A DNA stretch of 40,451 bases from Clostridiales bacterium (GTDB lineage Bacteria > Bacillota > Clostridia > Christensenellales > DTU072). The stretch's first letter is position 1. Each line of letters opens with the position of its first letter. The position numbers and the translations under genes were made by a program. Below, piece by piece: positions 4,790-32,835 of this stretch. The notes below the pieces were generated by a model, which worked only from the letters and a program-made list of their open reading frames with translations, searched no databases and was not told the origin of the DNA. The DNA is taken from positions 1 through 40,451 of the forward strand of contig JAAZJD010000008.1 in the NCBI GenBank assembly GCA_012800525.1, in the 5' to 3' direction.

Positions 4790-7744
4790 ATGAAAAAGAA
4801 AAACATTTTTACTGTAGTAGCTTTAATATTATCACTTGTTTTTTTAGCATTTGTTTTAATTTCTTGTGGAGAGGAAAAAACACCTAGTAATGAAACTGAT
4901 AATGGTCTTTTGGGAACATATTTTTATGAAAGAGAAGATTTTTCTTTAGATAACTTAGCTTGGATTGAGATTGTTAATAATAATCAATGGAAAGATTCAA
5001 AAGGGAAAGAAGGGACTTACACAGTTTCTGGTAGTGCCGTTACTTTTTATTTAGGTGGTGAAGAATTTTTAAATGGTGTAATTGATAATGGTGTATTGGA
5101 AGTAAATTATATTACATATAGAAAAGAAGCCAGGACTGAAGAAAAAGAAAATCCTAACACTACTGATACAAGCGATAGGGCAACAATAACAGGGCTAAAA
5201 AATATAAATGTAGAAGCATTTAACATTGATGGATTTAATATATATTTTGAAGTGAGCCCGGAGACAAATAAATTAGATTTTTATAATAATTTTGAGTATA
5301 AAACAGGTGGCACTTATTGTGACTTTTATTCAGACTCAGATTATACTGCAAAAATTTCACAAATTGTAGCACTTGAAGATGGCGAGAATGTCTTTTATAT
5401 CAAAGTAACTACAAATGAAGGTGACCCAAGATATGGAAAGTCTTGTTACAACAAATATACATTAACTATATATAAAAAGATTTATGCAACAATTACATAT
5501 CTAAACGAAGATGGTAGTTTTTATGCGAAAGAAGAAAAAGTTTTAGAAGGTACTGTTTTAAAAAATGGTAAAGAGATTTCTCGTATGGGTTACACATTTA
5601 ATGGCTGGAAAGAGGAAAATGCTACAAATGTTTTTGATTTTACTGCTCCAATAAAAAAAGACACAACATTATACGCAAGTTGGACTGCAAATAAATACAC
5701 TGTTACTCTTGATGCAAAAGGCGGAAAAGTTTCTAAAAACACATGGACAGTGACCATGGATGAACCTTTTTCTTTTCCAGTTGCAACGGATAAATTCGAG
5801 CATAACTTTGGCGGATGGTGTAAATGGCCTGATGGCGATACGCCATATACATATGCAGATGGTAAAGGTAGGGTCCCCAAATGGACAACACCTAGCCATA
5901 TGACTTTATATGCTAAATGGATCCCTAATCAATATAAGGTAACTTTAAACAATACTAATCCCGATGCTGGCACTTTATCTGGTGGTGGCAATAAAGATTA
6001 TGGTAGTGAAGTGACCATCAAAGCTAAAAGAAATAAAGGTTATGTGTTAATTGGTTTATATGATGAAAATGAAACGAAGGTGTCGACTGATGCTAATTTA
6101 ACATATACATTTACTATGTCTAACAAGCCTAAAACCTTTAAAGCAATATGGGAAATAGGAGTATATACCATCACTTACGATCCACAAGATGGTTATATCG
6201 CTCTAAATAGTTTTTCAATTAAATATGGGGACACTTATTCGCTAGAAAAACCCATACCAACTGAAGCATTAAAAGGATATGAATTTATCTATTGGCGATA
6301 TGATGGATGGAGACGTATAGCACTTACTGGTAATTGGCAAGATGAGGGAGATTCTACTTTAGTAGCTGAATGGAGTCCTATTACATACAATATTACATAT
6401 GACTTAGCTGGCGGAAATGTTTCGTCTCAAAATCGAACAACTTATACAGTTGAAACTCCTAATTTTACCTTGAATAATCCAATAAAACCTGGATATACAT
6501 TTATAGGTTGGTCAGGTACGGATATAGAGGGCGAATCTACAACTGTGGAAATACAAAAAGGCAGCATAGGGGTTAGATCATATATCGCAAATTGGGTACC
6601 GACTACTTGTAGAGTAACCTTTGATGCTAATTCAGGAAACAGTACACATGGCGCACAAGATATAACTACAGGAGATAGCATATCAAGTGCAAAAGCATTC
6701 CCAGTAGCTACTCATAGTAATTTAAATATGAAGTTTATGGGTTGGTATAACTCTAAAACTGGTGGTAAAAAAATAACAGATAGTCAAGGCAATGGTTTAC
6801 ATATATGGAATGCAGATAATACAAATACTACTGAAGAACTTTGGTTTAGTGAAGGCGAAGAAATAACTCTTTATGCAAGATGGTTTGATTCAAGCACTAA
6901 GCCGTTATTTACAAGAATAGATGCCGCTGGGAATGAAGACCCTACAGGCGACTACATACTATTTGGTGAGTATCCACAAACAATTAAAGCAAATGATGTT
7001 GAAGTAACAACGGAAAAAGATGTCAATGATAGATATTATCTAGGAAAAGATAATTCGTATTATGCAAAAGTATCTGCAGTACCATATGATAAAAATTGTA
7101 GGTTTTCAAATAATGAATATATCAATAATGGTAGAGTTTATTTTTTCAAGGTAGAGCCTGTCAAATGGAGAATACTTACTTTAACTAATGGTGATAAAAA
7201 TGCACTATTACTATGTGAAAGTATAATTGCAAACAAGAGATATAATGATTGGTCTGAAGGCATGCAAAATGGAGTATATGCTAATAATTACAGAGAAAGT
7301 GAAATAAGCGATTGGCTAAATAATGAACTTTGTAATACAATGTTTTCCCTTGAGCAAAAAGATAAAATTTCAGAAGAGTCTGTAGATAATCGCGCTAGTA
7401 CCACTGGATATGACCCTAATCAATATGCCGACGATAACCCATATGATAGTAGACGTATATTCTTAGCTAGTTATTGTGAAGTTACAGAAGCTCATTATGG
7501 TCTTAGCGCTACAAGTTCAAGACGCAGAGTCGCAAGTGACTATAGTAGGGCAACAGGAGTGCAGATTGAATCAGATAGTAGTGCAGGTTATGGTCGTTGG
7601 TGGCTGCGTTCTCCTCACTATTTTTATAGCGATAGAGTGCGCTTTGTTGGTTTTGAAGGAACAGTTGATGGGGAAGCTGATGTTAAATATGCTGTTGCTA
7701 AAGATATAGGTGTAGTTCCAGCTTTACGACTTAAGCTAGAATAG
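4790..7744 (+). CDS. Surface lipoprotein with InlB-type repeats and a DUF6273-like domain
   Basis: 984 residues. The signal peptide ends in lipobox LISC (Cys26), so it should be lipid-anchored outside the membrane. A beta-sandwich segment (cadherin-like, about 125-230, with EDGENVFYIKV) follows. Then come about six beta-rich InlB B-type repeats (about 235-700), marked by GYTFNGW, TLYASW, GYTFIGW and TLYARW. The C-terminal 280 residues resemble DUF6273: DYILFGEYPQT, FFKVEPVKWRIL, LLLCESIIANKRYN, SDWLN and GRWWLRSP. Two paralogues follow at 13970 and 16855. Such proteins are presumed surface ligand-binding or adhesion factors; no ligand is known here. A GAGGA site precedes the ATG at a long spacing. 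Confidence 0.85.
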   Translation: MKKKNIFTVVALILSLVFLAFVLISCGEEKTPSNETDNGLLGTYFYEREDFSLDNLAWIEIVNNNQWKDSKGKEGTYTVSGSAVTFYLGGEEFLNGVIDNGVLEVNYITYRKEARTEEKENPNTTDTSDRATITGLKNINVEAFNIDGFNIYFEVSPETNKLDFYNNFEYKTGGTYCDFYSDSDYTAKISQIVALEDGENVFYIKVTTNEGDPRYGKSCYNKYTLTIYKKIYATITYLNEDGSFYAKEEKVLEGTVLKNGKEISRMGYTFNGWKEENATNVFDFTAPIKKDTTLYASWTANKYTVTLDAKGGKVSKNTWTVTMDEPFSFPVATDKFEHNFGGWCKWPDGDTPYTYADGKGRVPKWTTPSHMTLYAKWIPNQYKVTLNNTNPDAGTLSGGGNKDYGSEVTIKAKRNKGYVLIGLYDENETKVSTDANLTYTFTMSNKPKTFKAIWEIGVYTITYDPQDGYIALNSFSIKYGDTYSLEKPIPTEALKGYEFIYWRYDGWRRIALTGNWQDEGDSTLVAEWSPITYNITYDLAGGNVSSQNRTTYTVETPNFTLNNPIKPGYTFIGWSGTDIEGESTTVEIQKGSIGVRSYIANWVPTTCRVTFDANSGNSTHGAQDITTGDSISSAKAFPVATHSNLNMKFMGWYNSKTGGKKITDSQGNGLHIWNADNTNTTEELWFSEGEEITLYARWFDSSTKPLFTRIDAAGNEDPTGDYILFGEYPQTIKANDVEVTTEKDVNDRYYLGKDNSYYAKVSAVPYDKNCRFSNNEYINNGRVYFFKVEPVKWRILTLTNGDKNALLLCESIIANKRYNDWSEGMQNGVYANNYRESEISDWLNNELCNTMFSLEQKDKISEESVDNRASTTGYDPNQYADDNPYDSRRIFLASYCEVTEAHYGLSATSSRRRVASDYSRATGVQIESDSSAGYGRWWLRSPHYFYSDRVRFVGFEGTVDGEADVKYAVAKDIGVVPALRLKLE

Positions 7745-13969: not shown

Positions 13970-16645
13970 ATGAAAAAAAGAAGTATTTTAATCATTGTTT
14001 TATTATTATTGATAGTCTTATCTGCTGGTGCATTAGCAGCTTGTTCAGGTTGCACGAACTCTCAAAATCAAGAGCCAGACGATGACAAACCACCACAATT
14101 AAGTGGAGAAGCTAGCATAACATCAGTACAAGGTGGACAAATGAATGGTCTTGACTTGATGTTAGAAGTTACAGATGATGACGAGATAATTTTAGCTAAT
14201 ATCTTATCTGCTTCAGAAGGTGCAAACTGGAAAGTATATACAGATGAAAATAATAAAGAAGCAAGCGCTGTAAGTTTTAGTGCTAAATTGACAGACCTAG
14301 TAGATGGTGAAAATATTTTTTATGTCGAAGTAAAGTCTGAAGATGGTAAAAAGAGCCAAATATATACATTGAAAATATTCCAAAATTGTAATGTTACATT
14401 AACTTTAACTAACGATAATTCTGAGGCTGGAACTATCTCTGGTGCAGGGAAAAAAGCTAGTGGTAGTAAAGTAACAATAATAGCAGAAGCTAATGCTGGT
14501 TATGTTTTCCTTGGTTGGTATCAAGGAGAAAATAAAATAGCTGATAGTAATAAATCACCTTATACATACACTATGCCTGATGTTGATAGCACACTGACTG
14601 CAAAATGGGAATATGCAAAATATGATGTAAAAACAAATACCAATAATTCTGGTGCTGGCACTCTTTCTGGTGCAGGAAATTATGCTTATAAAAGTAAAGT
14701 AGTCCTAAAAGCAACAAATAATAAAGAAAGTGCATATATTTTCGATGGTTGGTTTGAAAATTTAGATGAACCAGCAATATCAACAGCTTTAGAGTATAGC
14801 TTCACTATGCCTTCTCGCGCTATAACTTTAATTGCAAAATGGTCAATTAAGGAATATAAGTTAACAATAGTAAAAAATATTGAAGCAGCAGGTACAGTAT
14901 CTTGTGAGAAAATAGAAGGCAGTGAGGGAATGATAAAATATGGCGAAGGCGTAACATTAGCAGTAACGCATGCTAATCCAAATGGTTATTGGTTTGATGG
15001 CTGGTTTGAAGGTGTCACAAATAAGGGAACTCAAACGGAATATAGCTTTACTATGCCAGATTCTGATGTAACTGTTGAAGCAAAGTGGACTGTTAGATCA
15101 TATAATGTAAATGTAAATCATAATATAGAAACAACCCTAATAACTACAACTGGCTCTAATCCTTATGACTATAACACCGAAGTAACCATAGAAACAAGTA
15201 GTAATGCTTATTATGATTTCTTGGGCTGGTTTGATGCTGATAATGTAAAAATCTATAACGATAAAAAAGTGACATTTAATATGCCTGCTTTTGATGTAAA
15301 TTTAACTGCAAAATGGCAAGTTCAACAAATTGAGATTTCTGTATCAGCTTTGCCTTTAGCTGGTGGTTTAATAGGAGGAGCAGTTGAAGGGGGAGGTCCA
15401 CGTGAAGCATATACTTTGATTACATTAAAGGCAACCCCTAATCCTGGCTATATTTTTAGTGGTTGGTATGATAAAGATACTTCCTCCAAAATCGAAGGAG
15501 CAGAAGCAGAATATCAACGCACGAATGATGGTTCTATAACAAAATTTGAGGCACGTTGGGAAGCTATTAAATGTATAGTATCGTTTAATGCAAATGGTGG
15601 TAATGCAATTACAGACACACAAGAGATGTGGACTGGTCAAGAGATTACAGATGCTTCCCCATATTTTAATCAATTCCCAGTAGCCACACATAGTGGTTCA
15701 GGTAAAGTTTTCATGGGTTGGTATACAACTATAGATCCAGCAACTGCTGTGCGTATTACTCGTGCAGATGGAAATGGAATTAAACGTTGGGTTTCACCTG
15801 GTACAACACAAAATGTAACACAAACTCTTTATGCAAAATGGTTTGATACTAATATTGAGGGGAAAGGATATATAAGGGTAAATCAAGATGGTACTCTTAA
15901 TCCAACTGGTGGCTATATTCAGTTTGGGGAGTATCCACAAACCATCAAACCAAAAAGTGTAACCATTCCATCTCCAACACCAGGAGAAAATGGATATTAT
16001 TTAGGAAGTGATGGCAAAAAGTATGCTAAAATTACCGCAGCTCCATTTAAAGGTTATTATAAATTCTCAAATGATGAAGAAGTGGGTACTACAGAATATT
16101 ATTTTGAAGTGAAGCCTCTTATTTGGAAAATTCTTGAAACAAAAGGTAACGATGCTCTAGTATTATGTGAAAGCATTATTACAAATATGGCATATGATGC
16201 TACAAACAGTAAGTATGGAGAAAGTGCTGTAAGGACTTGGTTAATTGAAACATTCTATCAAACAGCATTTCCAAATTTGCAAAAACAATTAATTCATAAA
16301 GTAACAGTAGATAACAGTGCTGCAAGTACAAGATATGAGGATAATCCAAATGCTTCTGCTGATACAGAAGATAGAGTTTTCTTATTAAGTTATCTTGAAT
16401 GCTCTACTTACGGAAATGTTTTAATAGGAAGTACATTAAAAAAGGTAACTGATTATGCTATAGCAACAGGCGCATGTATGGATAATAATATGAGTAGGGT
16501 AGGCTACTGGCGACTACGTTCACCTAATAGTACCTCAGGACAAGCAGAGTGCATAGACCATAATGGTACGGCTCAACCAAATGTAGCGATTACAGCTGCT
16601 GAATATGGTATTGCTCCTGCTATATGGGTATTCCTTGCGGAATAA
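13970..16645 (+). CDS. Surface lipoprotein with InlB-type repeats and a DUF6273-like domain (paralogue 2)
   Basis: 891 residues. Signal peptide with Cys25 in LAAC (a second Cys follows at 28), so it should be a lipoprotein. Residues about 45-135 form a beta-sandwich with VDGENIFYVEVKSEDGKK, clearly homologous to the same segment of the 16855 protein. Then follow about six divergent InlB-type repeats with the pattern AGTISGAG, GYVFLGWY, TYTMPD, LTAKWE. The C-terminal domain has GGYIQFGEYPQT, EVKPLIWKILE, LVLCESIITNMAYD, VRTWLIE and GYWRLRSP. AGGGGGT precedes the ATG. Presumed cell-surface binding protein; ligand unknown. Confidence 0.85.
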   Translation: MKKRSILIIVLLLLIVLSAGALAACSGCTNSQNQEPDDDKPPQLSGEASITSVQGGQMNGLDLMLEVTDDDEIILANILSASEGANWKVYTDENNKEASAVSFSAKLTDLVDGENIFYVEVKSEDGKKSQIYTLKIFQNCNVTLTLTNDNSEAGTISGAGKKASGSKVTIIAEANAGYVFLGWYQGENKIADSNKSPYTYTMPDVDSTLTAKWEYAKYDVKTNTNNSGAGTLSGAGNYAYKSKVVLKATNNKESAYIFDGWFENLDEPAISTALEYSFTMPSRAITLIAKWSIKEYKLTIVKNIEAAGTVSCEKIEGSEGMIKYGEGVTLAVTHANPNGYWFDGWFEGVTNKGTQTEYSFTMPDSDVTVEAKWTVRSYNVNVNHNIETTLITTTGSNPYDYNTEVTIETSSNAYYDFLGWFDADNVKIYNDKKVTFNMPAFDVNLTAKWQVQQIEISVSALPLAGGLIGGAVEGGGPREAYTLITLKATPNPGYIFSGWYDKDTSSKIEGAEAEYQRTNDGSITKFEARWEAIKCIVSFNANGGNAITDTQEMWTGQEITDASPYFNQFPVATHSGSGKVFMGWYTTIDPATAVRITRADGNGIKRWVSPGTTQNVTQTLYAKWFDTNIEGKGYIRVNQDGTLNPTGGYIQFGEYPQTIKPKSVTIPSPTPGENGYYLGSDGKKYAKITAAPFKGYYKFSNDEEVGTTEYYFEVKPLIWKILETKGNDALVLCESIITNMAYDATNSKYGESAVRTWLIETFYQTAFPNLQKQLIHKVTVDNSAASTRYEDNPNASADTEDRVFLLSYLECSTYGNVLIGSTLKKVTDYAIATGACMDNNMSRVGYWRLRSPNSTSGQAECIDHNGTAQPNVAITAAEYGIAPAIWVFLAE

Positions 16646-16715: not shown

Positions 16716-16854
16716 GTTGATATAAAGGGCTAATAAAGTGAAGGAAAAATATTTGCTTTTGATATATAAAATTACAAGATAAGAAGTGTTTGCAGCTTTT
16801 TATTTTGAAGGACATAGATATAAATATAAAAACATATTTGTACTAGGAGGTAAA

Positions 16855-19596
16855 ATGAAAAAGAGAAGCATTTTAATAATCGTATTAGTATTAGCAATAG
16901 TACTAGCTGTTACGCTTTCTTCTTGTAAGGACAAAAAGGAATTAAATGGCGAAGCGGTCATACAAGGCATAGAAGGTGGATCGTTAGAGGGGCTTGATGC
17001 ATCTTTAGATGTTTCACCCGACACTACAAATGTAGATTTTTCTTCAATTATATCTGCATCTGAAGGTGCAACTTTTAAAGTGCATAAGGATGAAGCAGGA
17101 GAAACTGAAGTTTCTACAGATGCTGCAGTGGAGTTAGAAGATGGTGAAAATATTTTTTATGTCACAATAACTTCTGAAAATGGCGAAGCTAGTGAAACAT
17201 ACAAGTTAAATGTATATAAAAAGTTTAATGTAACTGTAACATACAAAAATGGCGATGCCATAGTTGAAACGGAGGAAGTTGTAACTCGCACAGTTTTGGG
17301 TGCAGGTCCAGAAGCTCCTATCCGCAAAGGATATACATTTGGTGGCTGGGGTTCAGAGGGTCATGTAGTGACAGAGGCTGTGACATTTGATGCAATTTGG
17401 ACAGTTAATCAATATACACTAACTTTAAGCAAAAACATTAATGCAGCTGGAACAGCCAATATATTAGGCGAAAGCAAGAATGATTATGGCAAAAGTGTCA
17501 CTGTAAAGGCAACAACCAACGAGGGTTACAATTTTGATGGTTGGTATGACAAGCAAGTAAAAGTATCAGAGGAGCTAGAATATACATTTGACATGCCCGC
17601 ATATAATAGGGAGCTAAAAGCAACTTGGAAAGCCAATCATTACACATTATCTTTAAGTATGGATAATACCTATCCTAATGCTGGTGATGTAGTTGGAGGC
17701 GGCGAAAAAGAATATGGCAAACAAGTGCAAGCAACAGCAAGAACTAATCTAGGTTATACTTTCTTGGGCTGGTTTGATGAGTTGGGGAACAAAGTCTCTG
17801 ATGAGCCAAATTATGAGTTTACTATGCCAGCTAAAGCTAGGTCACTTCAAGCAAGGTGGAACATCAATAAATATAAGGTAACTATAACAAAAGTTAATGG
17901 AGAAGGAGGCAATGCCTCAGGTGCTGGCGACTATAACTATGGAACTAGCATAACCCTAACTGCAACAAAAAATACTGGTTATAATTTTGAAGGTTGGTTT
18001 GATGAAAATAATAAAAAAGTCTCTGACGGCTCAGATTTGACCTATTCATTTACGATAGCTACTTCTAATAGAACATTTAAAGCAAAATGGAGTATTCAAC
18101 AATATACTATTACATTTAATAGTAATGGAGGAAGTGATGTGCAACCCGTCACTCAAGACTATGGTACTGAAGTAAATGCACCTAGTAATCCAATAAAAAT
18201 AGGACATACATTTGATTATTGGTGCAGTGATGAGGGGCTAACAAATCAATATACATTTGGTGGTACAATGCCAGCACAAAACTTTACCCTATGGGCTAAA
18301 TGGAAAGTCCTAAAATATCAATTAAATGTAAGTTCAGATCCTGCGGGTGCTTGTACACCGACTGGTACTGGAAGCTATGATTATGGCTCTTCTGTAAGTG
18401 CAGAAGCGGTAAGCCCTAATCCTGGCTACTGGTTTGTTGGCTGGTTTGACGAGGTTGGTGTTGTTGATGGGGGTTTAAAGTATACATTTAACATGCCTGA
18501 CAAAACAGTTAATCTTACTGCGAAATGGTCGCCAAACAACTATAAACTAACATTAAACAATGACAACCCTGATGCTGGAACAATTACGGGTGCAGGGACA
18601 TACCCTTATAAAAGAAGTGTAACAATAGAAGCAACAAACAAGCCAGGTTATACATTTGAAGGTTGGTATGAGGGGAGTGAAAGAAAAACTTGGCCAGCAA
18701 AAAAGACATTTGCAATGCCTAATTATGCAATGACACTTACAGCAAAATGGAAACTATATCAACGGATAAACTATGATGGAACTTCTAATCCAACAACTGG
18801 CAACTATATTTTATTTGGTGAATGGCCACAAACACTTAAAGCTGATAATGTAACGATACCAGCTGGCGCATCACCAGAAACTAGTGGTCCTTATAAAGGC
18901 TATTATGCAGGTTATGATGCAAGTGACAATATCGTTGGATATTATGCAGAAGTGACTGCAAGCCCATATAACAGTAGTTATAGGTTTACAGATGAAAATG
19001 GACCAGCTATAGTGAGTGGCACAAAGTATTACTTCAAGGTTGAACCACTAAAGTGGAGAATATTAGAAAGCACAGCTGGCAAAGCGATGATAATATGTAC
19101 AAGCATTATTGAAAGTATGGGCTATGATAACATTAACAACACATATAATGTAGACAATACACATAGTGAATTGAGACGTTGGCTAAATAATGCGTTTTTA
19201 ACAAAAGCATTTAGCACATTAAGACAACAATTAATAGAAAATACTGAGGTAAATAATGCTGCCTCTACTACGCATAATGCTTCTAATCCATATGAGTCTA
19301 ATAATTCAATAGATAAAGTGTTTGCATTGAGCTATTTGGAATTATCAAACAGCAATTATTTTACTGGTAATACAGCAAGGCAAATAGTGACAAGTGACTA
19401 CACTAGGGCAAAGGGCATTAGGATGCAAATAACATCAAGCGGTTATGGAATTGCTCAATGGTGGTCTCGCTCGCCTAGGTCAGAAGCAAACAATATTGTT
19501 ACTGTGGTAGATTTCGATGGTTCATATACTGATAAGAGTGCAACGATTACGACTGGTTCAGTAGGCGTAGTTCCTGTTGTATGGATAAAATTATAG
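16855..19596 (+). CDS. Surface lipoprotein with InlB-type repeats and a DUF6273-like domain (paralogue 3)
   Basis: 913 residues from the ATG at 16855, chosen because AGGAGG lies at 16845-16850 and the signal peptide begins there (MKKRSILIIV, nearly the same as in paralogue 2). The lipobox is LSSC. Domains: beta-sandwich (EDGENIFYVTI), a classic InlB repeat (GYTFGGWG), about seven divergent repeats (GYNFDGWYD, GYTFLGWFD, FTMPA, LTAKW), then a DUF6273-like domain with GNYILFGEWPQT, FKVEPLKWRILE, MIICTSIIESMGYD, LRRWLNNA and QWWSRSP. The repeat region is longer than in paralogue 2. It ends at a clear terminator. Confidence 0.85.
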   Translation: MKKRSILIIVLVLAIVLAVTLSSCKDKKELNGEAVIQGIEGGSLEGLDASLDVSPDTTNVDFSSIISASEGATFKVHKDEAGETEVSTDAAVELEDGENIFYVTITSENGEASETYKLNVYKKFNVTVTYKNGDAIVETEEVVTRTVLGAGPEAPIRKGYTFGGWGSEGHVVTEAVTFDAIWTVNQYTLTLSKNINAAGTANILGESKNDYGKSVTVKATTNEGYNFDGWYDKQVKVSEELEYTFDMPAYNRELKATWKANHYTLSLSMDNTYPNAGDVVGGGEKEYGKQVQATARTNLGYTFLGWFDELGNKVSDEPNYEFTMPAKARSLQARWNINKYKVTITKVNGEGGNASGAGDYNYGTSITLTATKNTGYNFEGWFDENNKKVSDGSDLTYSFTIATSNRTFKAKWSIQQYTITFNSNGGSDVQPVTQDYGTEVNAPSNPIKIGHTFDYWCSDEGLTNQYTFGGTMPAQNFTLWAKWKVLKYQLNVSSDPAGACTPTGTGSYDYGSSVSAEAVSPNPGYWFVGWFDEVGVVDGGLKYTFNMPDKTVNLTAKWSPNNYKLTLNNDNPDAGTITGAGTYPYKRSVTIEATNKPGYTFEGWYEGSERKTWPAKKTFAMPNYAMTLTAKWKLYQRINYDGTSNPTTGNYILFGEWPQTLKADNVTIPAGASPETSGPYKGYYAGYDASDNIVGYYAEVTASPYNSSYRFTDENGPAIVSGTKYYFKVEPLKWRILESTAGKAMIICTSIIESMGYDNINNTYNVDNTHSELRRWLNNAFLTKAFSTLRQQLIENTEVNNAASTTHNASNPYESNNSIDKVFALSYLELSNSNYFTGNTARQIVTSDYTRAKGIRMQITSSGYGIAQWWSRSPRSEANNIVTVVDFDGSYTDKSATITTGSVGVVPVVWIKL

Positions 19597-22139: not shown

Positions 22140-22177
22140 AAGACCTTGCACTACGAAATCGTAGCAAGGTCTTTTTT
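22140..22177 (+). terminator. Intrinsic terminator
   Basis: AAGACCTTGC (22140-22149) pairs with GCAAGGTCTT (22164-22173); TACG/CGTA extends the stem within the loop, and a T-run follows. It lies only 35 bases before the next start codon, so the 22212 gene needs its own signal or partial read-through. Confidence 0.85.
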
Positions 22178-22211
22178 ATTTATCCCAAAAAATATGAAAA
22201 GGAGATACCAA

Positions 22212-22802
22212 ATGTTAGCAGATAAGGATACGAAAATTAACAAAAACAAAAACAAGGAGATGACAAAAATGATTAATAATTTAAACACAAAATTAAAAGA
22301 TGAAGATGTAATAGCAATTATTGGCTTAATTGAAAGCATAGGAAAAAATCGTAGTAAGGAGACTGAAAGTTTAGGAGGAGAAATGCAACAAGAATTGGAA
22401 TATACATTGTCTAATGGTAATAAGATAAAAATAAAAGTAACACCACAATTTAAAAAGATGTATCTTGCACAAATAAAGAAGGAAAAGCAAATTCATAGAA
22501 AAGAAACAAGGCGACATGTGTCGCTAGAATATTTAGCTGAAAAGAATGTAGAGTTTGCATCTAATATCAAAAATCCTGAAGAAGCATATATTGAAGAAGA
22601 AGAGTCTAATCAAATTAGAAAAGCTTTAAGCTCTCTAACAAAGGAAGAATATAAAACACTAGAACAAATTGCTGAAGATGAATTTTGTTATAAAACATAT
22701 GCCCGTTTGAATAATATTACCATAGAAGCTGCATATAAAAGAATTCAAAGACTAAAAGAAAGGGCTAAAGGTCTTATTGCAATTAGTAAGATTAAAAGGT
22801 AA
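22212..22802 (+). CDS. Sigma-region-4-like transcription regulator
   Basis: 196 residues from the ATG at 22212 (AAAAGGAGA upstream); frame open further upstream runs through the terminator and is rejected. The middle has KMYLAQIKKEKQIHRKETRRH, a Lys/Arg-rich segment followed by VSLEYLAEKN. The C-terminal part is a sigma-70 region-4-like helix-turn-helix: ALSSLTKEEYKTLEQIAED and ARLNNITIEAAYKRIQRLKE. The layout, including the ETRRH...SLE motif, is typical of small sigma-like regulators of conjugative elements and phages in Bacillota, so it may be a relic of such an element. No partner genes are present. Confidence 0.65.
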   Translation: MLADKDTKINKNKNKEMTKMINNLNTKLKDEDVIAIIGLIESIGKNRSKETESLGGEMQQELEYTLSNGNKIKIKVTPQFKKMYLAQIKKEKQIHRKETRRHVSLEYLAEKNVEFASNIKNPEEAYIEEEESNQIRKALSSLTKEEYKTLEQIAEDEFCYKTYARLNNITIEAAYKRIQRLKERAKGLIAISKIKR

Positions 22803-25094: not shown

Positions 25095-25127
25095 AGCTTA
25101 ATTATCTTTATAACAATAACTTAACTA

Positions 25128-25169
25128 TTAGAGCACCAAAAAGATTCTTTTGGTGCTCTAATTTTATTC
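25128..25169 (+). terminator. Strong intrinsic terminator
   Basis: A 14-bp perfect stem (TTAGAGCACCAAAA with TTTTGGTGCTCTAA), a 6-base loop and a T-rich tail end the beta-propeller transcript. The stem would also work, more weakly, in reverse. Confidence 0.9.
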
Positions 25170-25547: not shown

Positions 25548-26054
25548 ATGTCAGAAGAAGCTAGTAGTCATTTTATAAAAGGTGTTTGGGTTCCGTTTAT
25601 AGATGAGCCAAACAAAGAATCATTTAACGATTTGTATGAAAAGGTTAAGTATAGATTTCCAACAAAAAGAGCTTTCATTAGAGAGTGCCTTCATTTAGGT
25701 GCAGAGCAAATATCGATAGCATATACTGAAAATCTAGAAGGTGGTTTTGCCTTTAAAGAAAATAAAAATACTCTTGAACAATTAAAGTCTTTAGATGAAA
25801 AAAATCAACAACTCTATAGATATCTTAGAACTCAAATCAAGCATGGCTTTGCAAATCAAAGTTTAATAATCACAATGCTCTCTTGCATCTACAACTTATC
25901 AATTTCCCTTGTAGAAGGAAAGCCTCTTCACTACACCAACATCAATGCAGGTCTTTACGATTTATTGCCAATGCGCTTTAATGACATCTACCAAGATCTC
26001 CTCAAGCAATATGGGTTCATCAACAATGTAGATACATATGATAAGAAAAAATAG
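25548..26054 (+). CDS. Unknown cytosolic protein
   Basis: 168 residues, no signal peptide or membrane helix. N-terminal part: YEKVKYRFPTKRAFIRECLH then LGAEQI, a segment reminiscent of the helix pair of a ribbon-helix-helix or relaxosome accessory protein, which is only a guess. The C-terminal half is predicted helical (LIITMLSCIYNLSISLVEG). AAAGGGGGT precedes the ATG. It is separated from the helicase operon by the structured RNA. Confidence 0.6.
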   Translation: MSEEASSHFIKGVWVPFIDEPNKESFNDLYEKVKYRFPTKRAFIRECLHLGAEQISIAYTENLEGGFAFKENKNTLEQLKSLDEKNQQLYRYLRTQIKHGFANQSLIITMLSCIYNLSISLVEGKPLHYTNINAGLYDLLPMRFNDIYQDLLKQYGFINNVDTYDKKK

Positions 26055-26068
26055 TGCCCTTTGTGTAA

Positions 26069-26097
26069 TTTAAAAATTCTTTAAATAATGCTACAAT
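26069..26097 (+). promoter_or_regulatory. Promoter of the structured RNA
   Basis: TACAAT (26092-26097) with a weak TTTAAA (26069-26074) 17 bases upstream. The expected start, about 26104, coincides with the first base of the closing stem of the RNA. Confidence 0.5.
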
Positions 26098-26103
26098 CAA
26101 CAT

Positions 26104-26250
26104 AAGAACCCAAGTCGGATACGAGAGGAATTTATCCTGTAACGGCCGCGCCGCGTGGGGAGCTGTTAGCTTTCTGCAAAGAGTGAGGGTTCTTTAAAGG
26201 ATACGGTGGACTTGACTCCAGGCCATGCAATGGCAACCGTGTCTTTTTTT
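26104..26250 (+). ncRNA. Structured small RNA of unrecognised class
   Basis: About 147 bases, far richer in GC than its surroundings. A first domain is closed by AAGAACCC (26104-26111) with GGGTTCTT (26187-26194). Inside are GGATA/TATCC (26117-26121, 26133-26137), AACGGC/GCTGTT (26141-26146, 26162-26167) around CGCGCCGCG, and CTTT/AAAG. A second domain is closed by GATACGGT (26200-26207) with ACCGTGTC (26236-26243), holds GGA/TCC and GCCAT/ATGGC arms, and is followed by seven Ts, a terminator. It has no open frame. I compared it by eye with T-box, SRP, tmRNA, 6S and common riboswitches and found no match. Confidence 0.7.
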
Positions 26251-26340: not shown

Positions 26341-26399
26341 TCTTTAGCATATTAACATTTTAAGGTATAATAATATTAGTTTATTGAGAATGCTAAAGA
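26341..26399 (+). promoter_or_regulatory. Helicase-operon promoter inside an inverted repeat
   Basis: TCTTTAGCAT (26341-26350) and ATGCTAAAGA (26390-26399) are perfect inverted repeats. Between them, TTTAGC (26343-26348) and TATAAT (26366-26371), spaced 17 bases, form a promoter. The right arm overlaps the ribosome site AAAGAGGTGAG. It may be an operator pair, or, in read-through RNA, a stem that hides the ribosome site. Confidence 0.6.
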
Positions 26400-26412
26400 G
26401 GTGAGAAAAGTT

Positions 26413-29400
26413 TTGTTTGGCAATGAAATTACATTTTATGACTTAGAAACACTAGTGGATGCTAATGTAAAGAAAGAAAAAAGCGTTCGCGATATTGGTG
26501 CATTTAGAGGAGGCAAGGAGTTTCATGATGATTCTCTTGAAAAGTTTGGGGACTTTATAAAAGGAAGCAAATTTCTTTGCGGTCATAATATTTTTCAACA
26601 TGATAACTATTATATAAAAAATATAACAGATAGGCTTAATATAAGTAGCTTTATTGATACTTTGTTGCTATCTCCATTACTAGATCCATATAAGCCATAT
26701 CACTATTTAATAAAGGATGATAATATTGTTGGCTCTAGAAACTTTAATGACCCTTTATCAGATTCTAAAGGTGCAGCAAAACTGCTTGAAGATTTCATTG
26801 ATAAATATAAAAATCTTAATAAAAACATGCAAAAAATTTTATATTTTCTTTTGCATGAACATATATATTTTAAAAGTTTCTTTGAATTTATAAATGTTCG
26901 ATTTTCTAAATTTGGTATTAATTTATCTAATCTAATAAAGCGTGAAGTGGGAGATAAAATATGTATTAATGCTCCAATCGATATGTTAATTGATAATAGG
27001 CCGATTGAACTTGCATATACACTTATGCTTTTTTCTCAATATGCAGAACAAAAGAAAAACATTGACTGGTTAAAAGTTAAAACTGAGCTAGATGATGGGT
27101 TTGTTTTTTTAGAAAAACCCAAAGATGGTGATGTACCATATGTTTTAAAAACTCCAGCATGGGTTTTAAGAAACTTTCCTAAAATAGAAGAAGTTGTTCA
27201 TATATTAAGAGGTGTTAGTTGCAAGGCATGTAAATATTGTAAAAACGAATTAGACGAGGTTAAATCTTTAAACAAATTTTTTGGATATGAAAATTTTAGA
27301 CAGTTTGATGGTAAAAACCTACAACATGAGGCGGTAAAGGCTGCTACAGAAGGAGAGTCTATTCTTGTCATTTTTCCTACTGCTGGCGGAAAATCTCTGA
27401 CATTTCAACTGCCAGCATTAATAGCTGGACATGCTGAAAATAGCTTAACAGTTGTTATTTCTCCTCTTCAATCTTTGATGAAAGACCAAATAGATGTTTT
27501 AGAAAAAGAACATAATATTTTTAGTGCAGTAACAATAAATGGATTGCAAGATGTTGTGGAAAGAAAAAATGCAATTGAAAGAATCGAAAAGGGAAGTGCA
27601 AACATTTTATATATTTCACCAGAAAAATTAAGAAGTCAAAGCACAGAGAATCTTTTGCTTAGAAGACATATTGCAAGATTTGTAATTGATGAAGCCCACT
27701 GTTTATCATCATGGGGACATGACTTTAGAGTAGATTACCAGCATATTGGAAAGTTTATAAAAACTCTGCAGGCTAAAAAAGGTGGCAAAAGAATCCCTGT
27801 TTCATGTTTTACTGCTACAGCAAAAGTGGAAGTAAGTGATGAGATTAAAAAATATTTTAAGAAAACTTTAAATCTTGAATTAAGAGAAATAAGTGCAGAT
27901 ACTCGAAGAAAAAATTTAAGTTATTTCCAAATTTCAGTAAAAGACAATGCAGACAAGTTTGATATCTTGTGTAATCTTTTAAAAGAGAAAAGATGTCCAA
28001 CGATCGTTTATGTAGCAAGGGTCCAAAGAGCAAACGATTTAGCCCAAAAGCTTTGTGGTAGAGATTTTAAGGCACGGGCATATAATGCAAAAATGGATTC
28101 CAAAGAAAAGGCAAAAAATCAAGATGATTTTAAAGAAGGCAACATAGATATAATTGTTGCAACTACCGCATTTGGTATGGGAGTTGATAAGAGTGATGTA
28201 GGAATGGTAGTTCACTATAATATATCAGATTCTTTAGAAAATTATGCTCAAGAATCAGGTAGAGCAGGAAGGGACCCTAAAATAACAGCTGATTGCTATA
28301 TCATATACAATGAAGATGATTTAAATGATCATTTTTCAATGTTAAATCATACTAAACTATCTTTAAAAGAAATTAAGGATATATGGAAAGCTGTTAAAAA
28401 TATAACAAAAGATAAACGAAGAAAATTTTCAATGTCTGCTATTGAAATAGCAAAAAGGGCAGGATGGGACTTGGAAGTAAATAAATCAGGCATTGAAACT
28501 AAAGTTACTACTGCAATTAATGCTTTAGAGCAAGGTGGTTTTTTGGAAAGAGGATATAATGCTCCTAGAATATTTGCCGACAGTATTTTGGTAAATAGTG
28601 TAATGGAAGCAAGAAAGAAACTTGAAAACTCTAAACTTTTTAAAGATGACGAAAGAAAAGATAAAGCAATGCAAATACTTGGTTCATTGCTTGGCTCTAA
28701 AAATATAAATCGCAAAAAAACTGATACAGCTGAATCTAGAGTAGACTATATTGCAGAAAATCGCGGTTTTGAAACACAAGAAGTTATGGATATTGTTACT
28801 GACTTAAGGACAGAAGAAATCCTTGGTGATTCTCAAGATTTAGTAATTGATTTTAGTAGTGAAGGATTAATTGGACAAAAGAGAGAAAAACTTAAGAGGC
28901 TTTATGAAATAGAGAAATGTTTTTTAAGTTATCTAAAAAAAGGTACAAATACATATGATTTAAGAGAAATCAATGAAGAAATCCAAAAAATCAATGAGAA
29001 AGCTTCAATCGTAGAATTACAAAAAGTAGTAGGATTTTTAAGTATTGCTGGTTATATCAAAACAGAAAGAGCAGGGAAAAGATATTCATTAAAAATTACC
29101 AGTGTAGAAGATGATAGTGAATATTTAATAAAACATCTAGATCGTAGATTAGATATATCAAATACTTTATTGAGTTACTTAAATGAATTAGACAGAACAA
29201 AGCCAACTGACAAAAGGTTTATTGAGGTGTCTACTAAAATGCTAGTGGACCATTATAACCATAATCTATTAGGTGATATCATCAATTCAAAAGAGGTAGA
29301 GGAAGCTTTGCTATATTTATCAAGAGTAGATATTTTAAGTATAGAAGGTGGCTTTTTAGTTTTATATAATGCAATGCAGATTGAAAGGATAGAATATGGT

Positions 29401-31380
29401 AGAGATTATTTAAAATCAGATTATGCAAAATTAGAGGAGTTCTATGAAAATAGAAAAAGACAAATTCATTTTGTTGGCGAGTATGCTGGATTAATGAAAG
29501 AAGACATGGTTAAAGCTAAAGAGTTCGAAAGAGATTATTTTACTTTAGAATCTAAAGAATTTGAGAAAAAATATTACAAAGGAAGACAAAAGGAACTAAA
29601 ATCGAGTATCACTCCTAAAAAATATGAAGAACTCTTTTCAGACTTGTCGGAAGAACAATTAGAAATAATAGAAGATAAAGATTCTCAATATATAGTTGTT
29701 GCTGCAGGACCTGGTAGTGGTAAAACTAGAATTTTAACAAGAAAACTAGCCTCACTTAGTCTTTTAGAAGATGTCAAAAGTGAACATTTGCTAATGCTTA
29801 CTTTTTCTAGAGCTGCGGTTAATGATTTTAAAGAAAAATTAACGGAATTATTAAAAGAGCAAGCAAAATATATACAAATAAAAACATTCCACTCTTATTG
29901 TTTTGATTTATTAGGAAGACCTGGAAATATTAATGATGACAAAATAATTGCAGAAGCAACAGAAAAAATACGTGCGGGCGAAGTTGATACATATACCTTA
30001 AATAAAAAGACACTGGTTATTGATGAAGCTCAAGATATGAATGAGGAACACTTCGGCTTAATAGAGGCATTAATTGAACAAAATGAAGATATGAGAGTTA
30101 TTGCGGTAGGGGATGATGATCAATGCATTTTCCAATTTAATGATGCCAATCCTCAATTGTTTGGCTCATTGTTATTAAAAGAAAAATCGCAAAAGTATGA
30201 ATTGGTGGATAATTATAGGAGCTATGCAAATCTAGTGAGTTTTTCAAATCAATTTATTGCAAGAGAGAAAAACAGATTAAAGAAAACAGCAATTAAGCCA
30301 GTAAATAAAGTAAATGGCAATATACAAGTTATAGAGGTAGAGTCTGATAATATTGAAGGAGCTGTGGCTGATGCAGTTTTATCGACCAATCTTTCTGGCA
30401 CTACTTGCATAGCAACTAGGACAAATCAAGAAGTTAATATGATAACATCATTGCTTGTTGATAGAGGAAGAGATGCATCAAGAGTTCAGTCAATGATGCA
30501 AACAAATATTTCCTGCTACAAATTAGTAGAAATTAGAGCTTTTCTAGATTACATTGTCAAACTTATGAAGGAAGAAACTCAAAATGAAATTTCTGAAGAT
30601 TTTTGGAATAATGCAAAACAACAAATAAGCAGAGTATATAAATCTAGTAAAAACTTGGATATACTTGAAAACTTTTTTAAAGGTTTTGAAAAGAATTTTC
30701 CAAATGAAAAGTATAAAGATGATCTGCTAGAATTTGCTAGAGAAGTTAGTATTGAAGATCTTAGCGATATTGATGAAAATAAAATTTTCGTATCAACAAT
30801 ACATAAAATAAAAGGCAGAGAATTTGATAATATGTTTATTATGTTGGGCGAAAGTTTTCCTGAAAGGTTATCAGCTGAAGATAACAAACTTATATATGTT
30901 GCACTTACAAGAGCCAAGAAAAATATGTGTATACTTTGCAAGAGAAACCCCTTTATATATATCAATGTAGACAATCTAAAAAGGTACAAAAACAATAAAA
31001 ATTATGAGTTGCCTCGAGAAATTACCTTAAGATTTACATACTCTGATGTACATTTAGGCTATTTTGATTACGAACCAACCCAACGCAAAATAAACAAATT
31101 AAAAAGTGGGGATAAATTATATTGTGATGTAGATGGTGAAAAACTCTTTTATAGAGAAAACTCAAATAAAAATGATTGCATTTATCTTTCCAGTGCTAAG
31201 CAAAAGGAAGTCAAAGAATTAATGGAAAAAGGTTATGTTATGCATCAAGCCTCAATTAAAGATATTGTTTACTGGATTAAAGACAAAGATTTAGCAACAG
31301 CAAAAGAAATAAAAGTAATTTTGCCAGAATTGACTCTAAAGTTAAAAGATAAAGTCGAATCATCTACTCAATTAACTTGA
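26413..31380 (+). CDS. Exonuclease-RecQ-UvrD helicase fusion protein
   Basis: 1655 residues from TTG at 26413, preferred to GTG at 26401 because GAGGTGA lies at the right distance. Residues 1-150: DnaQ-like 3'-5' exonuclease region (YDLET with Asp10/Glu12; GHNIFQHD with Asn59, Asp64). About 270-276: a CxxCxxC metal-binding motif. About 290-640: RecQ-like helicase, Walker A FPTAGGKS (Lys327), DEAH box at 426-429, AFGMGVDKSD and QESGRAGRDP. About 650-1070: winged-helix and linker region. About 1080-1520: UvrD-like helicase, AAGPGSGKTR (Lys1104), IDEAQD (1203-1208), DNYRSY, STIHKIKGREFD and VALTRAKK. A helicase with two motors should process DNA; the exonuclease activity is inferred from motifs. 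Followed by MazG-like and HNH genes. Confidence 0.9.
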   Translation: MFGNEITFYDLETLVDANVKKEKSVRDIGAFRGGKEFHDDSLEKFGDFIKGSKFLCGHNIFQHDNYYIKNITDRLNISSFIDTLLLSPLLDPYKPYHYLIKDDNIVGSRNFNDPLSDSKGAAKLLEDFIDKYKNLNKNMQKILYFLLHEHIYFKSFFEFINVRFSKFGINLSNLIKREVGDKICINAPIDMLIDNRPIELAYTLMLFSQYAEQKKNIDWLKVKTELDDGFVFLEKPKDGDVPYVLKTPAWVLRNFPKIEEVVHILRGVSCKACKYCKNELDEVKSLNKFFGYENFRQFDGKNLQHEAVKAATEGESILVIFPTAGGKSLTFQLPALIAGHAENSLTVVISPLQSLMKDQIDVLEKEHNIFSAVTINGLQDVVERKNAIERIEKGSANILYISPEKLRSQSTENLLLRRHIARFVIDEAHCLSSWGHDFRVDYQHIGKFIKTLQAKKGGKRIPVSCFTATAKVEVSDEIKKYFKKTLNLELREISADTRRKNLSYFQISVKDNADKFDILCNLLKEKRCPTIVYVARVQRANDLAQKLCGRDFKARAYNAKMDSKEKAKNQDDFKEGNIDIIVATTAFGMGVDKSDVGMVVHYNISDSLENYAQESGRAGRDPKITADCYIIYNEDDLNDHFSMLNHTKLSLKEIKDIWKAVKNITKDKRRKFSMSAIEIAKRAGWDLEVNKSGIETKVTTAINALEQGGFLERGYNAPRIFADSILVNSVMEARKKLENSKLFKDDERKDKAMQILGSLLGSKNINRKKTDTAESRVDYIAENRGFETQEVMDIVTDLRTEEILGDSQDLVIDFSSEGLIGQKREKLKRLYEIEKCFLSYLKKGTNTYDLREINEEIQKINEKASIVELQKVVGFLSIAGYIKTERAGKRYSLKITSVEDDSEYLIKHLDRRLDISNTLLSYLNELDRTKPTDKRFIEVSTKMLVDHYNHNLLGDIINSKEVEEALLYLSRVDILSIEGGFLVLYNAMQIERIEYGRDYLKSDYAKLEEFYENRKRQIHFVGEYAGLMKEDMVKAKEFERDYFTLESKEFEKKYYKGRQKELKSSITPKKYEELFSDLSEEQLEIIEDKDSQYIVVAAGPGSGKTRILTRKLASLSLLEDVKSEHLLMLTFSRAAVNDFKEKLTELLKEQAKYIQIKTFHSYCFDLLGRPGNINDDKIIAEATEKIRAGEVDTYTLNKKTLVIDEAQDMNEEHFGLIEALIEQNEDMRVIAVGDDDQCIFQFNDANPQLFGSLLLKEKSQKYELVDNYRSYANLVSFSNQFIAREKNRLKKTAIKPVNKVNGNIQVIEVESDNIEGAVADAVLSTNLSGTTCIATRTNQEVNMITSLLVDRGRDASRVQSMMQTNISCYKLVEIRAFLDYIVKLMKEETQNEISEDFWNNAKQQISRVYKSSKNLDILENFFKGFEKNFPNEKYKDDLLEFAREVSIEDLSDIDENKIFVSTIHKIKGREFDNMFIMLGESFPERLSAEDNKLIYVALTRAKKNMCILCKRNPFIYINVDNLKRYKNNKNYELPREITLRFTYSDVHLGYFDYEPTQRKINKLKSGDKLYCDVDGEKLFYRENSNKNDCIYLSSAKQKEVKELMEKGYVMHQASIKDIVYWIKDKDLATAKEIKVILPELTLKLKDKVESSTQLT

Positions 31381-31440
31381 TGTTTTATAGAACCCACTTT
31401 ATTGATATAATGTAAAAAATAAACAAATTGAAGTAGCAAT

Positions 31441-31770
31441 ATGAAAACAATAAAATATAATAAATTAATCCGTGATAAAATACCACAAATAATAGAAGCA
31501 TCTGGCAAGAAATGTAAAACTCGCATTTTAGATGAAGTTGAATATAAAGAACATCTTAAACTAAAACTTCAAGAGGAACTAAATGAGTATTTAGAAAGCG
31601 ATAATGTTGAAGAACTTGCTGACTTATATGAAGTGTTAAAATCAATTCTCGATTTGGAAAATATTTCACTTGAGGAGTTTAATAAAATAGTGGATTCTAA
31701 AAGCGATAAACGTGGTGGCTTTAAAAAAAGACTCCTGTTAATAGAAGTTTCAGAAGAAGATAAGGAATAA
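31441..31770 (+). CDS. MazG/HisE-like nucleotide pyrophosphohydrolase
   Basis: 109 residues, all-alpha NTP pyrophosphatase type. The N-terminal signature YNKLIRDKIPQII is characteristic of the phosphoribosyl-ATP pyrophosphohydrolase-like family. Metal ligands lie in LQEELNEYLE and VEELADLYEVLK (the EExxE...ExxD pattern). The C-terminal SKSDKRGGFKKRLLLIEV is also typical. Such enzymes hydrolyse nucleotide triphosphates to monophosphate and pyrophosphate; substrate unknown. It starts 60 bases after the helicase stop; a TATAAT in the gap may give extra transcription. The ribosome site is weak. Confidence 0.85.
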   Translation: MKTIKYNKLIRDKIPQIIEASGKKCKTRILDEVEYKEHLKLKLQEELNEYLESDNVEELADLYEVLKSILDLENISLEEFNKIVDSKSDKRGGFKKRLLLIEVSEEDKE

Positions 31771-31797
31771 AATATTGTAAAATTTGTAGGTATAAAA

Positions 31798-32835
31798 ATG
31801 AGTATACCAGGTTATTTGTTAAAAGAAGGTCCAGTAAAACCATATGCTTCAGAAGAGGAAATGTGGGAAAATCTTAGTGCTTTTTTTATTGGTAGAGCTA
31901 AGTTTGATACTACATATAAATTTGCACTTTTAAAAAGCATATTGGATAATTTGTTTAATGTTGAAAAAGATTTAACTTTAAGTTTCGACTCCATATTTGC
32001 AAAGTTTAGTGAACTATATTGGAGTTTAGTAGCAAAGTATGAGCTAAATCAAAAAGCAGCAAATGTTCGAAATGCAAGAAGTAAAGTAGAGCAAATAATA
32101 GATAAATATCTAATAGAATATGACATAGACAGGGATACCCCATTTGATTCTTTGTCCTCTAGTATCCAGCTTAAATTAGTAAAAGAAATTGGGAAAGAAT
32201 GTAGGCACAATGTGTTTGGTGCTTTTTACGGAGATACTGATGGATTTATATATGGTTTTAGCAAAAAAGAAGAAAAAATATATTTAAGCAAAGCTTCTTA
32301 CGCATTTCTTTGTAAGCATAAAACTGTTATAGAAAAAAGCAATTATTTTGAGTGGGTTAAATTTTTAGAAAAAGTTAATCCCATGGAGAGCTCGTATCAA
32401 TTAGCTAAAAAATTAGATGATTCAACAAAGCGAGAAAATCTTGGATTTTATCGAGACTATTTACTAAAAGAGTTTCATATTAAAAATTGTTTTTATTGCT
32501 CTAAAACCTTAGCACGTAAAATTGAAGTAGATCATTTTATTCCTTGGTCATTTGTAAAAGATGATAAATCATGGAATTTAGTTTTAGCATGTAAAGATTG
32601 CAATAGTTCAAAAAGCGACACTTTGGCTCATAATAAGTTTATACCTATCATACAAAAACGAAATTGTGAGCTTTTAGATATGTCAAAAAAGGAAATAATT
32701 ACTAGTTCAAGCAAAGTTAAAAGAGAGAAAGATTTTATCATCAAAGATTTTCAAAATTATGATAATGAAAAAATAAATAGAGTATACAATACAGCAGTTT
32801 CAAATGGTTTTAAGGCTGGTTGGTTACCTAGATAA
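31798..32835 (+). CDS. HNH endonuclease
   Basis: 345 residues. The C-terminal third carries an HNH nuclease: zinc pair CFYC (Cys231, Cys234), catalytic VDHFIPWSF (Asp245-His246), WNLVLACKDCN and the second zinc pair CKDC. The N-terminal 220 residues have no familiar domain but are mixed helical (ISWSLVAKYE-like charged segments) and may recognise DNA or partner proteins. It starts 27 bases after the pyrophosphohydrolase, presumably in one operon with the helicase. Its last 12 bases overlap the convergent fic gene. Confidence 0.85.
   Translation: MSIPGYLLKEGPVKPYASEEEMWENLSAFFIGRAKFDTTYKFALLKSILDNLFNVEKDLTLSFDSIFAKFSELYWSLVAKYELNQKAANVRNARSKVEQIIDKYLIEYDIDRDTPFDSLSSSIQLKLVKEIGKECRHNVFGAFYGDTDGFIYGFSKKEEKIYLSKASYAFLCKHKTVIEKSNYFEWVKFLEKVNPMESSYQLAKKLDDSTKRENLGFYRDYLLKEFHIKNCFYCSKTLARKIEVDHFIPWSFVKDDKSWNLVLACKDCNSSKSDTLAHNKFIPIIQKRNCELLDMSKKEIITSSSKVKREKDFIIKDFQNYDNEKINRVYNTAVSNGFKAGWLPR

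Follow-up and report, generated by a model that had tools for sequence, protein, structure and literature searches.

The 40,451-nt stretch of DNA analysed here (the window) very probably contains a real but rare RNA gene at positions 26104-26250 of the plus strand. Our best reading of the sequence comparisons is that it represents a new RNA family, which would lie outside Rfam and be of a familiar kind. We think it rather likely that it is a free-standing small RNA gene, with a transcript of about 147 nt that carries a conserved multibranch domain and most likely acts in trans. The decisive support for the predicted structured RNA is comparative.

The conserved domain occupies positions 26104-26194 of the plus strand, as delimited by folding and by comparison with a homologue, and a terminator module follows separately downstream. 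An 8-bp closing stem found by folding, P1 (26104-26111/26187-26194), encloses four hairpins. The first of these, P2 (26115-26124, UCG-GAUA-CGA), is a weak 3-bp hairpin of low pairing probability, and an alternative pairing of GGAUA at 26117-26121 with UAUCC at 26133-26137 is possible. P3 (26126-26138, AGGA-AUUUA-UCCU) was likewise obtained by folding. The stem of P4 (26143-26153, CGGC-CGC-GCCG) is free of any change between the two copies, and the 10-bp hairpin P5 (26155-26177) carries a two-sided change from G-C to A-U together with a G-U to A-U change. Two blocks are invariant in the alignment with the homologue: GGATACGAGAGG at 26117-26128, a candidate recognition segment, and TCCTGTAACGGCC at 26135-26147, which comprises the 3' strand of P3, a GTAA linker and the 5' strand of P4. 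The 92-nt domain has a GC content of 52%, compared with a window mean of 32%; this value is reached by 63 of 40,359 segments of 92 nt, located around the 26104 site and near 17250 and 18300. The earlier view that such GC richness is 'almost diagnostic' of a functional RNA was overstated. Judged against dinucleotide shuffles, the folding energy of the whole element is clearly low (z -3.1, 1/200; z -2.9, 5/1000), that of the 92-nt domain alone shows a modest excess (z -2.1, 29/1000), and the opposite strand folds no better than shuffles (z -1.0).

A DNA search of 98 relatives returned a single significant homologue, with 80% identity over 90 nt (E 4e-17). It lies in a Clostridiales metagenome-assembled genome, G010 (C97:46427-46518, contig JAAZLE010000039.1), which belongs to a different genus of the same family as the window genome. 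The RNA-strand alignment comprises 92 columns without gaps, 73 of them identical, and the similarity ends at P1 on either side. Folded independently, the G010 copy gives the same structure, with 97% of the pairs in common. Transitions account for 15 of the 19 substitutions. Paired columns carry six of the substitutions and the 34 unpaired columns the other 13, and 29 of 29 base pairs remain standard in both copies. The chance of keeping all pairs is P ~0.0008 if 19 random changes are simulated anywhere in the domain, and P ~0.012 if only the six paired-site changes are redealt. The overlap of the MFE pairs, 0.97, compares with a mean of 0.23 for random mutants, and none of 2000 mutants reached 0.97. 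Formal covariation is thin, consisting of one two-sided change and four one-sided changes, and a column-shuffle control (241/500) is uninformative for an alignment with two rows only. The sequence-only reading had named compensatory changes in the closing and terminal helices as its check; in the alignment every pair is kept, the single two-sided change lies in P5 and the terminal helix is absent from the homologue. We consider the evidence for the predicted conserved fold good but not deep, because there are two sequences only and the structure was first drawn on the window copy.

Upstream of the domain, a sequence match on the plus strand (26069-26097) resembles a promoter, with a weak -35 TTTAAA, a 17-nt spacer, a -10 TACAAT and a TG before the -10, and ends 6 nt upstream of P1. 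The G010 copy has a promoter-like site, TTGATT-16-TATACT, which ends 8 nt upstream of the aligned start. Sites of this type arise readily by chance (6 seen versus 2.5 expected in 601 bases); at a matching position in both copies the two sites are jointly suggestive, each being weak by itself. Downstream, folding predicts a branched intrinsic terminator on the plus strand (26196-26250, -20.8 kcal/mol alone) that ends in T7 at 26244-26250. A simple terminator scan misses it because its loop is branched: the stem (26196-26207/26236-26247) surrounds hairpins at 26208-26219 and 26222-26234. Sequence reading and folding thus bear out the closing stem, the inner helices, the terminal helix and the T7 tract described before, with the correction that the terminal helix, at 12 bp, is longer than had been stated and encloses two small hairpins. 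The branched terminator is absent from the G010 homologue, where a T6 tract, as a sequence feature, stands directly 3' of P1, whereas in the window copy P1 is followed by three T only and then by the separate terminator. Consequently, it is the domain that is conserved as a unit, with a variable ending. As far as sequence features go, each copy has a terminator of its own, as a free-standing small RNA would (branched stem with T7 in the window, T6 in G010). The same-fold homologue and the matching promoter-like site, together with the blank Rfam search reported below, support the earlier proposal that this is a structured RNA whose class is not recognised and which has a predicted promoter and terminator of its own.

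Based on these features, we infer that the RNA is transcribed. A sigma-A-type promoter would start transcription at or beside 26104, and transcription would end at the T7 tract at 26250, giving the transcript of about 147 nt. Within it, the first 91 nt would fold into the multibranch domain, with P1 closing P2-P5, and the remainder would form the terminator. Selection would keep the domain; the terminator would be replaceable, because in the homologue the T6 tract takes its place directly after P1. P1, P4 and P5 would serve as a scaffold and display the invariant strands GGAUACGAGAGG and GUAA for a partner, either an mRNA or a protein, and these invariant segments may thus be the partner contact. 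The domain most likely acts in trans, since the genes beside it in its two hosts are unrelated; the absence of a common neighbour is the one observation from which we infer this. A further reading, which we regard as tentative and rather doubtful, sees here a new compact multibranch RNA class, perhaps a protein-binding RNA or an accessory or defence RNA on small islands, with the invariant GGAUACGAGAGG/GUAA core as its functional contact.

A covariance model, R1, was built from the window and G010 copies. It detected the RNA in 2 of 40 family genomes, with one copy per genome, and scans of order, class and phylum samples (1,185 genome scans, partly overlapping) gave no further genuine copy among the matches examined (L036, L041, L046 and L047). 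Weak R1 matches outside the family had E values of 0.0005-0.08, including L037, L038 and L048 at E 0.04-0.08. On comparison with reading frames, the matches L036, L041 and L046 were rejected, as they lie inside an iron hydrogenase-like gene, inside an alpha/beta hydrolase-like gene and in a GC-rich coding stretch, respectively. Match L047 (1501-1618, minus strand, G888) is due to chance and carries a T-box-like sequence, AATTAGGGTGGTACCGCG. An exact-core pattern scan of 84,980 species genomes, a type of scan that can overlook diverged copies, yielded G010 itself and, apart from it, a single chance match in coding DNA of Cohnella. Seven viral-contig scans yielded four single matches, none of which was matched by R1, and BLAST searches of phages and plasmids gave chance-level matches only.

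In the window, the neighbours of the RNA are a 168-aa ORF and a helicase operon. In G010, the RNA lies downstream of tRNA-Pro(CGG), at a distance of about 270 nt, with a gene for an AsnC/Lrp-like regulator on one side and one for an IS30-like transposase on the other (both proteins were named by eye). With two loci to compare, there is neither a common neighbour gene nor a fixed downstream gene. Since the positions differ, either the gene moved or its surroundings did, and mobility of the RNA gene is possible. If the RNA belonged to a mobile element or a genomic island, as an accessory or defence RNA moving between hosts, this would agree with the non-syntenic copies, with the tRNA-Pro and transposase close to the G010 copy, with the lack of a copy in the AsnC-like/tRNA-Pro region of the sister genome G022, and with the restriction/defence-like helicase-HNH operon that adjoins the window copy. 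However, none of the ORFs listed next to the window copy is a recombinase, each genome holds a single copy, and phages, plasmids and viral contigs gave nothing beyond chance. In addition, for the beta-propeller protein encoded next to the RNA in the window, identity is 65% in G010 as compared with 34-44% in others; hence G010 and the window genome may be closest relatives that inherited the RNA from a common ancestor, and simple descent with rearrangement is possible. We regard an origin on a mobile element as unlikely.

Other features of the surrounding window are recorded here in their own right. The 168-aa ORF (25548-26054) has no Pfam, PADLOC or convincing PHROG match; its only genome matches, in two order-level genomes, are weak and distant (29% over ~75 aa). 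Just 3' of the beta-propeller gene, an inverted repeat whose perfect 15-bp arms are separated by a 6-nt loop (ATTAGAGCACCAAAA/TTTTGGTGCTCTAAT, 25127-25162) is probably a two-way terminator. Two genes upstream of the RNA, a 218-aa ORF (22146-22802) is similar to RNA polymerase sigma factors of the phage type (PHROG 1740, E 8e-5). Three large secreted-protein ORFs (4790-7744, 13970-16645 and 16786-19596) with GW..F.AKW-type repeats, read by eye, have similar C-terminal domains and are apparently paralogues.

The helicase operon downstream of the RNA (26401-32835) encodes a 1659-aa fusion helicase, a 109-aa protein and an HNH protein. One half of the helicase is RecQ-like (DEAD/Helicase_C) and the other UvrD-like, and the PADLOC models DpdF and GajB match these two halves; the 109-aa protein has no Pfam match, and the HNH endonuclease has PtuB/Cas9-like HNH matches. 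The operon is a candidate defence system. A perfect 10-bp inverted repeat, TCTTTAGCAT/ATGCTAAAGA (26341-26350 and 26390-26399), flanks a helicase promoter-like site; its left arm contains the -35-like TTAGCA, its right arm extends into the ribosome-binding region, and the arrangement suggests an operator for a repressor or a hairpin in the mRNA.

The position of the RNA could point to a cis-acting leader, in which a 91-nt ligand- or protein-sensing aptamer with a terminator attenuates transcription of the helicase operon. A compact multibranch domain is indeed followed directly by a strong terminator upstream of the same-strand gene at 26401, and GGATACG occurs both in the domain and in the 5' strand of the terminator, so that UAUCCU (26133-26138) might conceivably pair with one or the other. 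However, in simulated growing transcripts no antiterminator and no pairing that sequesters the 5' strand of the terminator appeared, and P1 stayed intact at all lengths; on these folds, a riboswitch or attenuator for the helicase operon is therefore unlikely. Moreover, the helicase has a promoter-like site of its own (26344-26371) downstream of the RNA's terminator, and the G010 homologue, without the branched terminator, is followed by its next same-strand gene only after ~450 nt, an unrelated one. Nor do the two features travel together: among the 40 family genomes, helicase homologues were found in G001 (strong match) and G017 (split matches), both without the RNA, and G010, which has the RNA, gave no helicase match at E <= 1e-50. 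The suggestion that the RNA is the regulatory partner of the operon is thus not supported, and a cis-acting leader appears to us quite improbable. An antisense role toward the helicase leader or the start of the 168-aa ORF was also considered; the duplex energies were no better than those of shuffles.

The RNA might, in contrast to the small RNA gene that we prefer, be non-functional, that is, a chance GC-rich stretch or a degenerate remnant. While its rarity and the only moderately better folding of the domain alone would fit, the sharp borders of conservation and the retention of all pairs between two genera make this very improbable. A coding origin of the conservation was rejected as well. 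With a lower limit of 20 aa, only two ORFs overlap the RNA itself, a TTG frame of 49 aa on the minus strand and a frame of 20 aa; one 30-codon frame is open in both homologues, without an in-domain methionine start. Substitutions in this shared frame number 5, 7 and 7 by codon position and thus show no bias. Such ORFs are few and poor, and we take the RNA to be non-coding.

A search of the whole window against 4227 Rfam 15 families gave no match at the gathering cut-off. At E <= 10, only chance-level matches were obtained, namely ncr1241 (13.5 bits, cut-off 60) and SNORD56 (12.7 bits, cut-off 36) for the RNA region and sroE (10.7 bits, cut-off 51) for the G010 homologue; thus no known family was matched by either copy, the search on which the sequence-only reading had made its novelty depend. 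ARAGORN found no tRNA or tmRNA within the window. Bacterial SRP RNA (RF00169) was rejected, as the genome's match, an SRP RNA of the small type, lies on another contig (C85:23472-23570, 56.4 bits, over the cut-off). The 6S RNA model RF00013 had no match in the genome at E <= 0.001, a model that matches only 5 of 14 control genomes, so that the genome may still encode a 6S RNA. A housekeeping RNA, as suggested earlier, is not supported either, given an RNA found in two of the 40 family genomes and an SRP RNA elsewhere. Short RNAs may become too divergent to be detected; even so, that this is a diverged member of a catalogued family missed by the Rfam models is scarcely credible, as scores of 10.7-13.5 bits stand against cut-offs of 36-60, tRNA and tmRNA do not apply, and the SRP RNA has its own locus. 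The invariant block UACGAGAGG is identical over 9 nt with the sarcin-ricin loop of 23S rRNA; this likeness was dropped, since a 92-nt query compared with 2.9 kb of rRNA should give about as much by chance.

In bacteria, GC-rich intergenic regions are known to contain rare structured ncRNA candidates (e.g. PMC6429828, PMC8632094, PMC11109978). Such motifs are numerous, and the authors of the largest surveys call function assignments for rare motifs highly speculative (PMC11109978). Like terminator-controlling riboswitches, the RNA described here has a closed multibranch domain followed by a terminator; unlike them, it has no antiterminator pairing, no conserved downstream gene and no conserved terminator. 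With free-standing trans-acting bacterial small RNAs it shares a short unit, a predicted promoter and intrinsic terminator of its own, and restriction to a lineage, whereas its conserved part is a compact multibranch domain instead of a short seed plus terminator. It resembles the GC-rich intergenic candidates in being structured, non-coding, found by composition, supported by comparison and unassigned to a class; it differs in that only two members are known here and the downstream gene is not consistent, and thus we make no riboswitch assignment. A tempting but probably wrong link between the RNA and the helicase operon is removed. Taken together, the list of rare structured RNAs of bacteria would gain a well-bounded two-member family outside Rfam, and in an AT-rich genome, inspecting GC-rich islands can reveal real RNA genes that are too rare for standard comparative pipelines.
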